Below, in pieces: positions 28,307 through 30,612 of a stretch of 64,000 nucleotides of DNA. Within the stretch, counting starts at the first letter, position 1. Each line of letters begins with the position of its first letter. The notes below the pieces were generated by a model. The model searched no databases and was not told where the DNA came from. It was given only the letters and a program-made list of their open reading frames with translations. A program made the position numbers and the translations under genes. The stretch is from Halorhabdus sp. BNX81 (GTDB lineage: Archaea; Halobacteriota; Halobacteria; Halobacteriales; Haloarculaceae): assembly GCF_029229925.1 (NCBI RefSeq), contig NZ_CP107254.1, positions 620,001 to 684,000 on the forward strand, given 5' to 3'.

Positions 28307-29052
28307 CGGGGAGTGGCGACGGTTCGACCGCCGGTGAGGACTCCGCCGACGCGGACGAGCACGCGCCCGGCGAGCGAACGTGCCTCGATGACTGGACCGA
28401 CGACGGGAGCGATCTCCGGGCCGGCGTCGACGAGGCCGGCAAGGGGCCGGTGCTGGGATCGATGTTCGCGGCCTGCGTCGTCGCCGACCCCGCCGATCTG
28501 CCCGACGACGTCGACGACTCGAAGGACCTCTCGGCCGAGCGCCGCGAGGAACTCGCGGCCGTCGTTCGCGATCGAGCGCACGCCGTGGCAGTCAGCGAGA
28601 TCCCGGTCGCGCGGATCGACGACCCCGAGACCGACATGAACACGCTCACCGTCGCGGCCCACGCCGAAGCACTCGAACCAGTCGCCAGCGACGGACTCAC
28701 CGCCTACCTCGACGCCGGTGACACCAACGCCGTCCGCTTCGAGCGCCGTGTCGCCGACCGGATCGAGGCCGATCTCGATCTCCGGGCCGAGCATGGCGCT
28801 GACGCGTCCTATCTGATCGTCGGGGCGGCGAGCATCATCGCCAAAGTCGAACGCGACGCCCATGTTGCGGAGCTTGCGGCCGAGTACGGCGACCTCGGCA
28901 GCGGCTACCCCGGCGATTCGACGACCCGGGACTTTCTGGAGGACTATATTGAAGCACACGGCGAACTCCCGGCGTGTGCGCGAGAGTCGTGGCAGACGAG
29001 CCGCGACGTCCGTAACGCGGCCGGGCAGGCCGCTCTCGATGATTTTGATTGA
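28303..29052 (+). CDS. rnhB: Ribonuclease HII
   Basis: A 249-residue enzyme with the type 2 RNase H motif GVDEAGKGPVLGSM (Asp and Glu catalytic), VDDSKDLS, a later acidic residue in YLDAGDTNAV and SIIAKVERDAHV. It removes RNA from RNA:DNA hybrids. An acidic, probably disordered extension of about 38 residues precedes the domain and is unusual for the family. The start overlaps the pus10 stop by 4 nt, so translational coupling is likely. Confidence 0.93.
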   Translation: MTGSGDGSTAGEDSADADEHAPGERTCLDDWTDDGSDLRAGVDEAGKGPVLGSMFAACVVADPADLPDDVDDSKDLSAERREELAAVVRDRAHAVAVSEIPVARIDDPETDMNTLTVAAHAEALEPVASDGLTAYLDAGDTNAVRFERRVADRIEADLDLRAEHGADASYLIVGAASIIAKVERDAHVAELAAEYGDLGSGYPGDSTTRDFLEDYIEAHGELPACARESWQTSRDVRNAAGQAALDDFD

Positions 29053-29059
29053 TGGGCAT

Positions 29060-29067
29060 ATTCAGGG
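29060..29067. repeat. 8-bp target-site duplication, left copy
   Basis: ATTCAGGG immediately precedes the left inverted repeat of the element at 29068-29601. An identical ATTCAGGG immediately follows the right end at 29602-29609. An 8-bp direct duplication is a typical mark of transposition by, for example, IS6- or IS1595-type enzymes. Confidence 0.8.
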
Positions 29068-29601
29068 GGTGGTGTTCAGATAAGCACCGATCAAAGAGCC
29101 TATTTCTGCCGGCGAATCGGCTAAATCCTGGTGGCCTGCGAAAATCGAAGATTTTCGGGCGACCAGAAGACTACGTCTTCTGGTAAAATGAAAGGGCGAG
29201 GCACGCGTGGCGGCTGCGAGGCGGTTGCACCGCCTCGAATGGAGACGGCGACGCCGTCTCCCTGCCGCCACGGTTTGCGGAGGTCGGCGACGCCGACCTC
29301 CCTTTCCGGGAACCCCGGCGACGCAAGCCGCGAGGCGGCAGAGCCGCCTTGCGAGGCGGTTTCACCGCCTCGAACTCGCGGCGCACAGCGCCGCGCATGG
29401 CCCGTGCGAACGGGCGCTTCGCGCCCGTGAGCAGACACTGCAGGCCGCAACGCGGCCGAAGTCGTTCGAAAGACCTGCGGTCTTTCGTGATGACGAGAGA
29501 GCGAAGCTCTCTCGAACCACGCACAGCGAGCCGCGGGACCGGAACTGACGAGGGCTTTCTGGCTGGTTTCAATCATCTCGAATCCTTATCTGAACACTAC
29601 C
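29068..29601. mobile_element. 534-bp non-autonomous transposon-like element (copy 2) carrying a palindrome array
   Basis: The ends are inverted repeats, GGTGGTGTTCAGATAAG at 29068-29084 and, on the opposite strand, GGTAGTGTTCAGATAAG at 29585-29601. The element is bordered by perfect 8-bp duplications. No transposase frame is present. It shares end sequences and internal blocks with the 192-bp element at 4861-5052, but its interior contains a long run of distinct palindromes (29139-29514). It fills most of the 705-nt gap between rnhB and vapB. The autonomous parent must lie outside the window or be lost. Confidence 0.85.
29139..29514. repeat. Array of twelve different palindromes, each with a 3-nt centre
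   Basis: The palindromes (arm length, centre) are: 29139-29157 (8, GAA); 29162-29184 (10, TAC); 29217-29237 (9, TGC); 29241-29261 (9, GAC); 29279-29301 (10, GAC); 29333-29349 (7, AGA); 29352-29372 (9, TTC); 29377-29395 (8, ACA); 29410-29428 (8, TTC); 29443-29457 (6, AAC); 29467-29487 (9, TGC); 29494-29514 (9, GAA). All arms listed are perfect. The arm sequences mostly differ from each other; 29217-29237 and 29352-29372 share the arm CGAGGCGGT. Any transcript would fold into a row of tight 3-nt-loop hairpins. Confidence 0.85.
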
Positions 29602-29609
29602 ATTCAGGG
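29602..29609. repeat. 8-bp target-site duplication, right copy
   Basis: ATTCAGGG, identical to 29060-29067 on the other side of the element. Confidence 0.8.
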
Positions 29610-29716
29610 TGCGAACATCCGGCTGCCTTCTCCCACGACGATATTCCTGCACCTTCGCGCTGTGATCGCTGTCTATTCCCAAATAGATTCGACCGTACGG
29701 GATCTCAGTGAGGATT

Positions 29717-29757: not shown

Positions 29758-30018
29758 ATGAGCAAAACCGCCGAGGCCGACGATCGGGGGCGGATCGTCA
29801 TTCCGCATGAAATCCGAGAGAAGCACGGCGATCGGTATCGGGTCGTTGAACTCGATGATCGGGTCGAACTCATTCCGATCAACCGGGATCCAATCGAAGG
29901 GCTTCGAGATGCCGTCGGCGATACGTTCGACGGAAATTCGATCGCCGAGATCAAAGAGCAGGCACGGACGGCCGCCAGGGAAGCTGCGGTCGAGGATCTC
30001 TCGGACTCGTCGCAATGA
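29758..30018 (+). CDS. vapB: AbrB/SpoVT-type antitoxin (VapB)
   Basis: An 86-residue protein with a swapped-hairpin AbrB/MazE domain at the N-terminus: EADDRGRIVIPHEIREKHG then YRVVELDDRVELIPI. The C-terminal half is acidic and helical, as expected for the part that wraps the toxin. The ATG at 29758 is chosen because the domain starts right after it. It overlaps the PIN toxin gene as ATGA. Confidence 0.87.
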   Translation: MSKTAEADDRGRIVIPHEIREKHGDRYRVVELDDRVELIPINRDPIEGLRDAVGDTFDGNSIAEIKEQARTAAREAAVEDLSDSSQ

Positions 30019-30392
30019 TCTACGCCGATACCGACTTTTTCATCGCGCTGGTCAAAGACGACGACTGGCTCCAGGAGCGTGCTGTCTCGATCGCCCGGGA
30101 GAACGATGGGCAGATCTACACGTCACGGGCAACGCTGCTCGAGTTGTTGATGATCTCCGACCGATTCGCGTTCGATCGCTTCGAGGCACTCAGCTACGTC
30201 CTCGAAATCGCGGACGTTCCCGAGGACGAATCCGTTCTCTTTCAGGCGGCGGATTACATGGAACAGTACGACCTCACGGCATTCGACGCCTACCACGTCG
30301 CCTATGCTGACGCCGATCCCATCGTCTCCTCGGACAAAGCGTTCGACGACCTCACCGACGACCGTATTCCGATCGAAGCAAAATCCCAGTAA
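30015..30392 (+). CDS. vapC: PIN-domain toxin (VapC)
   Basis: A 125-residue PIN ribonuclease of standard VapC length. Acidic residues are at the expected places: MIYADTDFFIAL (Asp5/Asp7), Glu in TLLELLMI, LTAFDAYHVAYA and the final SSDKAFDDL. VapC toxins cut tRNA or rRNA and are neutralised by VapB, encoded 4 nt overlapping upstream. The module stands between the palindrome-bearing element and the duplicated dapD tail. Confidence 0.9.
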   Translation: MIYADTDFFIALVKDDDWLQERAVSIARENDGQIYTSRATLLELLMISDRFAFDRFEALSYVLEIADVPEDESVLFQAADYMEQYDLTAFDAYHVAYADADPIVSSDKAFDDLTDDRIPIEAKSQ

Positions 30393-30483: not shown

Positions 30484-30612
30484 GCTCCCACCTTTTTCAT
30501 CGTCGGGTGCGCCTTCGGCGCACCACTCCTTGAAAAATCTGGACCAAAAAGGCGCTCACTCCCTTCGGTCGCTCGCGTGAACCGCGTGCCGCAGGCACGC
30601 GGATGCTTTCCG
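30484..30612. repeat. Short spacer with two more 3-nt-centred palindromes
   Basis: Between the two dapD tails lie GGTGCGCC-TTC-GGCGCACC (30506-30524, 8-bp arms) and CCGCGTGCC-GCA-GGCACGCGG (30582-30602, 9-bp arms). They have the same design as the twelve palindromes in the 29.1-29.5 kb element. Runs of A/T (CTTTTTCATC, GAAAAATC, CAAAAAGG) separate them. Either could also act as the dapD terminator on the minus strand. Confidence 0.6.

Follow-up and report, generated by a model that had tools for sequence, protein, structure and literature searches.

REP/BIME repeats with RAYT are intergenic hairpins which often occur in inverted pairs and are read as folded single strands, and the sequence of their stems is conserved. 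The attC sites of integrons are read as folded single-strand DNA as well, with a conserved fold and a variable stem sequence. From haloarchaea, the part of the Haloquadratum study drawn on here describes MITEs as short, transposase-free elements with transposon-related TIRs and a target duplication, in addition to PATEs, which have neither TIRs nor target duplications and carry palindromes only near their termini, and SMRs, which have no target duplication (Dyall-Smith et al. 2011, PMC3119063). Concerning loop structure, GNA loops on G-C stems are known to give very stable DNA mini-hairpins, with a Tm of 78 C for d(GCGAAGC) (PMC4686876).

The window studied here is a stretch of 64,000 nucleotides from Halorhabdus sp. 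BNX81 (G000). A first-pass annotation had listed twelve palindromes between 29139 and 29514, each with a centre of three bases, and all twelve were recovered with the same coordinates and centres by a scan for perfect inverted repeats. The maximal centre is exactly 3 nt in 10 of them, while those at 29241-29261 and 29279-29301 (GGC-GAC-GCC) extend to 1 nt, because the outer bases of GAC can pair with each other; this formal 1-nt centre still leaves a hairpin loop of 3 nt. The 3-nt centre of the array is a hairpin triloop. Two more, overlapping palindromes with 4-nt centres lie at 29344 and 29400, and the two further palindromes reported downstream are real (30506-30524, arm 8, TTC; 30582-30602, arm 9, GCA). 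In 400 kb of evenly sampled, unselected sequence of the same genome we counted 186 triloop palindromes with arms of at least 6, corresponding to 0.17 per 376 bp, and the densest 376-bp window contained four compared to ten in the array. The palindrome density of the array is far beyond chance. A genome-wide peak at 3 nt, also proposed, is not clear at arms of 6-7, and only a modest two-fold excess appears at arms of at least 8, where 30 palindromes with a 3-nt centre were counted in the 400 kb and a Markov null predicts 14.8 (Poisson p = 3e-4). As the excess is no more than two-fold at these long arms, an independent palindrome class with a genome-wide 3-nt peak was rejected, and instead of forming a distinct repeat class set by its 3-nt centre the palindromes together make up the stems of a single composite fold, a rod with linkered modules. 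The arms are also less unrelated than had been stated: CGAGGCGG is present twice, and the same arms turn up again in further elements, both in this genome and in relatives. A protein-coding array was rejected for want of a plausible ORF, and no tRNA or tmRNA is present in the window.

The array had been placed inside a non-autonomous element, and this is borne out by TIRs, a target-site duplication and multiple copies. The element and its ends, the latter read from the sequence, are the following.

29060-29067, no strand: left target-site duplication ATTCAGGG, repeated at 29602-29609; the element is absent here in the congener G004
29068-29601, plus strand: MITE of 534 bp, multicopy, with a TIR pair and an 8-bp target-site duplication
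29068-29084, plus strand: left TIR GGTGGTGTTCAGATAAG, 17 bp, matching the right TIR in 16/17 positions and shared with a 697-bp element of G005
29585-29601, minus strand: right TIR, 17 bp (GGTAGTGTTCAGATAAG on the minus strand)
29602-29609, no strand: right target-site duplication ATTCAGGG, 8 bp

The genome has about 15 related copies, mostly of ~208 bp, and the copy at 578673 has the target duplication ACTCATAG. Of the genome sequence, 864 kb were sampled in stretches, the window included. Between 29068 and 29601 there is no transposase, only short ORFs of a spurious type. The 697-bp element of the congener G005 has the same TIR and encodes a 220-aa transposase with the Pfam domain DDE_Tnp_IS240 (IS6-type), and no autonomous element with these ends was found in the window's own genome. 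The insertion site of the window MITE, which begins 16 bp past the rnhB stop, is filled at the same position in the congener G006 and empty in G004; at a third locus a MITE is present in G006 and missing from the orthologous G000 site. Matches were obtained to four haloarchaeal plasmids and to none of the phage records. In the plasmid pHTIA of Halorhabdus tiamatea (L240:3001-3218) a MITE copy overlaps the ends of two annotated genes, one for an HNH endonuclease and one for a hypothetical protein, which are probably mis-annotated or truncated there.

Behind the MITE (29758-30392) lies a type II toxin-antitoxin-like pair, of which one member resembles MazE/AbrB antitoxins (by a weak Pfam match under the cut-off) and the other is a PIN-domain protein. 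In G004 the pair is likewise found after rnhB, and in G006 the antitoxin start can be seen there. It is followed in the window by another repeat.

30490-30605, no strand: separate repeat with the palindromes 30506-30524 and 30582-30602, built as TTTTTCATCGTCGGGTG-[hairpin]-CACCACTCCTTGAAAAATCTGGACCAAAAAGG and also as TTTTTCATCGTCGGGTG-hairpin-CACCACTCC

Similar sequence with other hairpins occurs in L035, L008 and, reverse-complemented, in L039, and the repeat reads as a second family, distinct from the rods, with conserved linkers of its own and exchangeable hairpins. At L026:900-1450 (genome 280900-281450) a tRNA-Gly(CCC) is followed by more 3'-end copies (GGTTCAATTCCCGGCCGGCGCA) between palindrome-rich stretches, and the arrays of L006 and L039 also adjoin tRNA-like sequence.

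Laid on the 208-bp sister copies, the window element appears as one rod with four hairpin-block insertions. The core rod of the short sister copies has about 119 bp, with GGNNTGAAAGGG at its start and GGGCTTTC at its end; its long arms pair, and a hairpin forms the apex. The boundaries given here come from a by-eye alignment to the 208-bp copies.

29125-29134, plus strand: rod, 5' segment (ATCCTGGTGG)
29135-29187, plus strand: hairpin block 1, not in the 208-bp sisters but present in the copy at genome 711045
29139-29157, plus strand: block 1 hairpin CGAAAATC-GAA-GATTTTCG
29162-29184, plus strand: block 1 hairpin ACCAGAAGAC-TAC-GTCTTCTGGT
29188-29203, plus strand: rod, ATGAAAGGGCGAGGCA (S1 5' arm and outer S2 5' arm)
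29204-29302, plus strand: hairpin block 2, a three-way module followed by the hairpin 29279-29301
29206-29214/29264-29272: CGTGGCGGC/GCCGCCACG, closing the three-way module of block 2 around the hairpins 29217-29237 and 29241-29261
29303-29328, plus strand: rod, inner S2 5' arm and conserved GAACCCCGGCGACGCAAGC
29329-29435, plus strand: hairpin block 3, with hairpins 29333-29349, 29352-29372, 29377-29395 and 29410-29428 and linkers GCGA...GAGC
29436-29461, plus strand: rod, CACTGCA, apical hairpin GGCCGC-AAC-GCGGCC (29443-29457) and GAAG
29462-29519, plus strand: hairpin block 4, TCGTT-[29467-29487]-TGATGA-[29494-29514]-AACCA; L019 has the same linkers with other hairpins
29520-29559, plus strand: rod, 3' segment with the S4, S3, S2 and S1 3' arms, ending GAGGGCTTTC

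Within the modules the linkers are conserved and the stems exchangeable. This applies to GTT-hairpin-TGATGA-hairpin-AAC and GCGA-hairpin-GAGC, which are found in this genus and in others, as well as to the three-way module CGTGGCGGC/GCCGCCACG, found in other elements of the own genome and in G006. The apical hairpin can be wholly different between otherwise similar sister copies, and the block 4 module with its TGATGA linker has opposite orientations relative to the rod in the window and in L019.

The comparison of orthologous loci, proposed earlier as a check for gain or loss of single palindromes, revealed gain or loss of modules between G000 and G006. At the window locus three differences separate the G006 element from that of G000, namely a single TIR base, a single loop base (TAC/TGC) and an extra 58 bp with two hairpins, located in block 3; the rnhB gene beside it is 93% identical. 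Over a block of ~700 bp (28995-29695), comprising the end of rnhB, the MITE and the downstream flank, both genomes are nearly identical, whereas the flanks differ by several percent, and this near-identity between diverged flanks suggests a recent recombination exchange between the two species. In the orthologous rods L225/L025 a 55-bp two-hairpin block is present only in G000, and its position within the S2 arm corresponds to that of block 2 of the window. In the second rod of this pair the S2 stem has changed on both arms and the adjacent unpaired stretches are identical. Such a fast two-arm replacement leaves room for inter-copy conversion or templated mutation.

Rods were found by DNA search in 39 out of 60 genomes and by a covariance model in 57 out of 79 haloarchaeal relatives, often with dozens per genome and up to 46 scored matches. 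When 120 genomes were drawn from the phylum, 17 had rods, all of them among the 19 that belong to the window's own genome, family or order, and none was found in the remaining 101 genomes outside the order. Adjacent rods are arranged head to head in 43 of 45 pairs, with a modal gap of 22 nt. Outside the genus many rods lack a TIR that could be recognised, and a search around the rods detected clear IS6-like ends in a minority of them, so that mobility by IS6 enzymes is only putative for the rods as a whole. L134 and L141, from other genera, have rods between different IS6-like ends (GTGTTTACTTTAG, GTGTTTAGTTA), as if the cargo were changing its ends according to the transposase at hand.

In an alignment of 76 distinct rods 96% of the cells pair, and both sides have changed in 24 of 27 pairs. 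The covariation score is 0.608, in comparison to 0.173 for shuffled and 0.05-0.08 for slid partners. The stem cells of 184 distinct rods are 95.4% Watson-Crick, 1.7% G.T and 0.6% A.C, and rods which diverge by 3-6% in the unpaired columns often differ by 20-40% in their stem pairs, on both sides. The unpaired bases are thus conserved while the stem sequence is nearly free, and the earlier statement that geometry is kept and sequence varies proved right. In 150 distinct S2 helices G.T outnumbers A.C 35 to 9 (p = 1e-4), the copies being related and the counts not fully independent. S1 was omitted from these counts because RNAalifold had put it in a G.U-containing register, while GAAAG/CTTTC pairs Watson-Crick. 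A low G.U content as proof of DNA was dropped, as the tRNA-stem control is also low (G.U 4/96). Covarying helices, the mark of a structured RNA, are present, and this mark is the same for RNA and single-strand DNA. Comparison of the array with known structured genes, a check set beforehand, matched no Rfam family: the best score in Rfam 15 was 22.4 bits against a gathering threshold of 40, and five copies gave no match at E<=1. The rod fold is under selection or, at the very least, is being maintained.

Clustered triloop hairpins have GNA or its complement TNC as loop in 76 of 105 cases (72%), isolated ones in 38 of 144 (26%; p = 5e-13), and the GNA/TNC share rises with arm length, from 14-15% at arms of 5-6 to 70% at arm 9. 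At rod apices with the motif GA-NN-loop-NN-GA, read on the rod strand, 87 GNA and no TNC loops were found among 135 unique contexts, the copies again being related. Where the flanking GA/GA steps stand in a CGAG context, their pairs are sheared in DNA as well as in RNA.

On balance we favour the explanation that the array belongs, as one of its long members, to a haloarchaeal MITE family which is mobilised in trans by IS6-type transposases and whose single-strand fold, probably of DNA, is under selection. The cargo of these MITEs is a conserved folding module, the rod, enlarged here by the four hairpin-block insertions. The fold would form in one single strand, for which DNA is a likelier candidate than RNA and which would be exposed on the lagging strand, during transposition or in DNA uptake; a putative host or element protein might then recognise the shape together with the conserved unpaired bases, as REP and attC sites are read, and so place the fold under selection. 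A stem would be free to vary as long as its two arms do so jointly, through compensation or inter-copy conversion. The pattern fits some such putative reader of shape, as had been supposed for an RNA or protein. That one strand folds is suggested by the excess of G.T over A.C in S2 and by apical GNA loops on one strand only. GNA triloops, 2-bp mini-hairpins, the inversion of a module and the lack of a TATA excess or a gene-orientation bias make us lean to DNA, and we regard single-strand DNA as roughly twice as probable as RNA. The inversion of the block 4 module between copies is nevertheless odd for a strand-specific reader and counts against our favoured explanation. Going further, the rods and GNA hairpin modules might form a class of archaeal mobile elements that is new and spans the order, one whose information lies in the shape of single-strand DNA, with a putative haloarchaeal reader, sequence-free stems and hairpins exchanged as units; this we put forward tentatively.

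The strongest alternative, which we consider unlikely although it deserves to be taken seriously, is that the rod and its hairpins act as folded RNA, either as a mobile non-coding RNA or as an mRNA element. The very strong covariation and the conservation of the unpaired bases would suit it, as would a rod strand on which G.T exceeds A.C and which alone has the GNA loops, and with RNA energies the fold has a z-score of -10.6. With DNA energies, however, the fold is equally extreme (-10.8), the loops are triloops and not tetraloops, Rfam has no match, and the block 4 module is inverted between copies. In addition, a TATA-like box, searched with a crude motif, lies upstream of 2 out of 184 rods vs 1.3 in shuffles, which is no excess, the rods are not biased toward the direction of neighbouring genes, and head-to-head rods occupy opposite strands.

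An explanation without any function, in which template switching from one arm to the other (quasipalindrome correction), together with conversion between copies, keeps and rebuilds the perfect palindromes, seems improbable to us. The arms do change jointly with few one-sided states, the S2 stem of L025/L225 changed in both arms beside identical unpaired neighbours, and hairpin blocks are gained or lost. Correction leaves unexplained, however, why unpaired bases are conserved across many genera, and also the conserved linkers, the GNA loops and the fixed head-to-head rod pairs 22 nt apart. The templated snap-back building of palindromes suggested in the first-pass annotation is neither demonstrated nor required, since covariation and conserved unpaired bases are expected from selection on the fold. 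Transcription terminators or insulators at gene ends are very improbable, because in spite of 40 out of 43 loci being intergenic (by a crude gene call) and of the MITE start 16 bp after the rnhB stop, 3' ends are not enriched (neighbours convergent in 4, divergent in 8 and codirectional in 15 cases), single rods point in the direction of codirectional genes in 5 cases and against it in 6, and conservation of the rod sequence would be superfluous for a terminator.

The rod family is large and seemingly undescribed so far: rods and hairpin-block arrays had no match in Rfam or in the open papers searched, among which were works on MITEs, PATEs and REPs, and a prior description elsewhere is possible. 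With its many copies, its strong covariation and no Rfam entry, this abundant haloarchaeal fold seems so far untouched by study. Should it be read as DNA, GNA mini-hairpins would have found one of their rare uses in nature, and recognition of shape over sequence would gain a new example; should it be read as RNA, it would be a large new mobile RNA family. The covariance model makes the family testable in genetically tractable haloarchaea, and the orthologous sites offer a natural system for following the appearance, loss and swapping of hairpins.

Among the known systems, attC sites share with the rods the conserved fold with variable stems, but the rods are dispersed, and in an unsystematic look neither an attC core motif nor a cassette array was noticed. 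REP/BIME repeats are likewise intergenic hairpins often paired inversely. They differ in that rod stems are not conserved in sequence and the ends here are IS6-type TIRs, and an assignment to REP/BIME failed because one conserved palindrome sequence is lacking, the stem pairs being nearly sequence-free. With the GNA mini-hairpins of the d(GCGAAGC) type the rods have in common the GNA triloop and the G-C rich stem, as in the apices GC-GAA-GC and AC-GCA-GT, but the former are known as oligonucleotides and the rods are a natural repeat (PMC4686876); no natural repeat family with a GNA mini-hairpin loop was found in the literature searched. The PATEs and SMRs of Haloquadratum, as far as the part of the study used here describes them, resemble our element in having palindromes in transposase-free elements and in the nesting of elements, and an identification with PATEs is ruled out by the TIRs and the target-site duplication (PMC3119063). 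The closest likeness in that part is to the Haloquadratum MITEs, which are also short, without transposase, with transposon-related TIRs, a target duplication and an unrelated interior; no cargo like that of the window MITE, whose interior is an order-wide covarying fold with hairpin-block insertions, is described there (PMC3119063). MITEs are a known kind of element, and the rod family and the hairpin-block arrays would be the new part.
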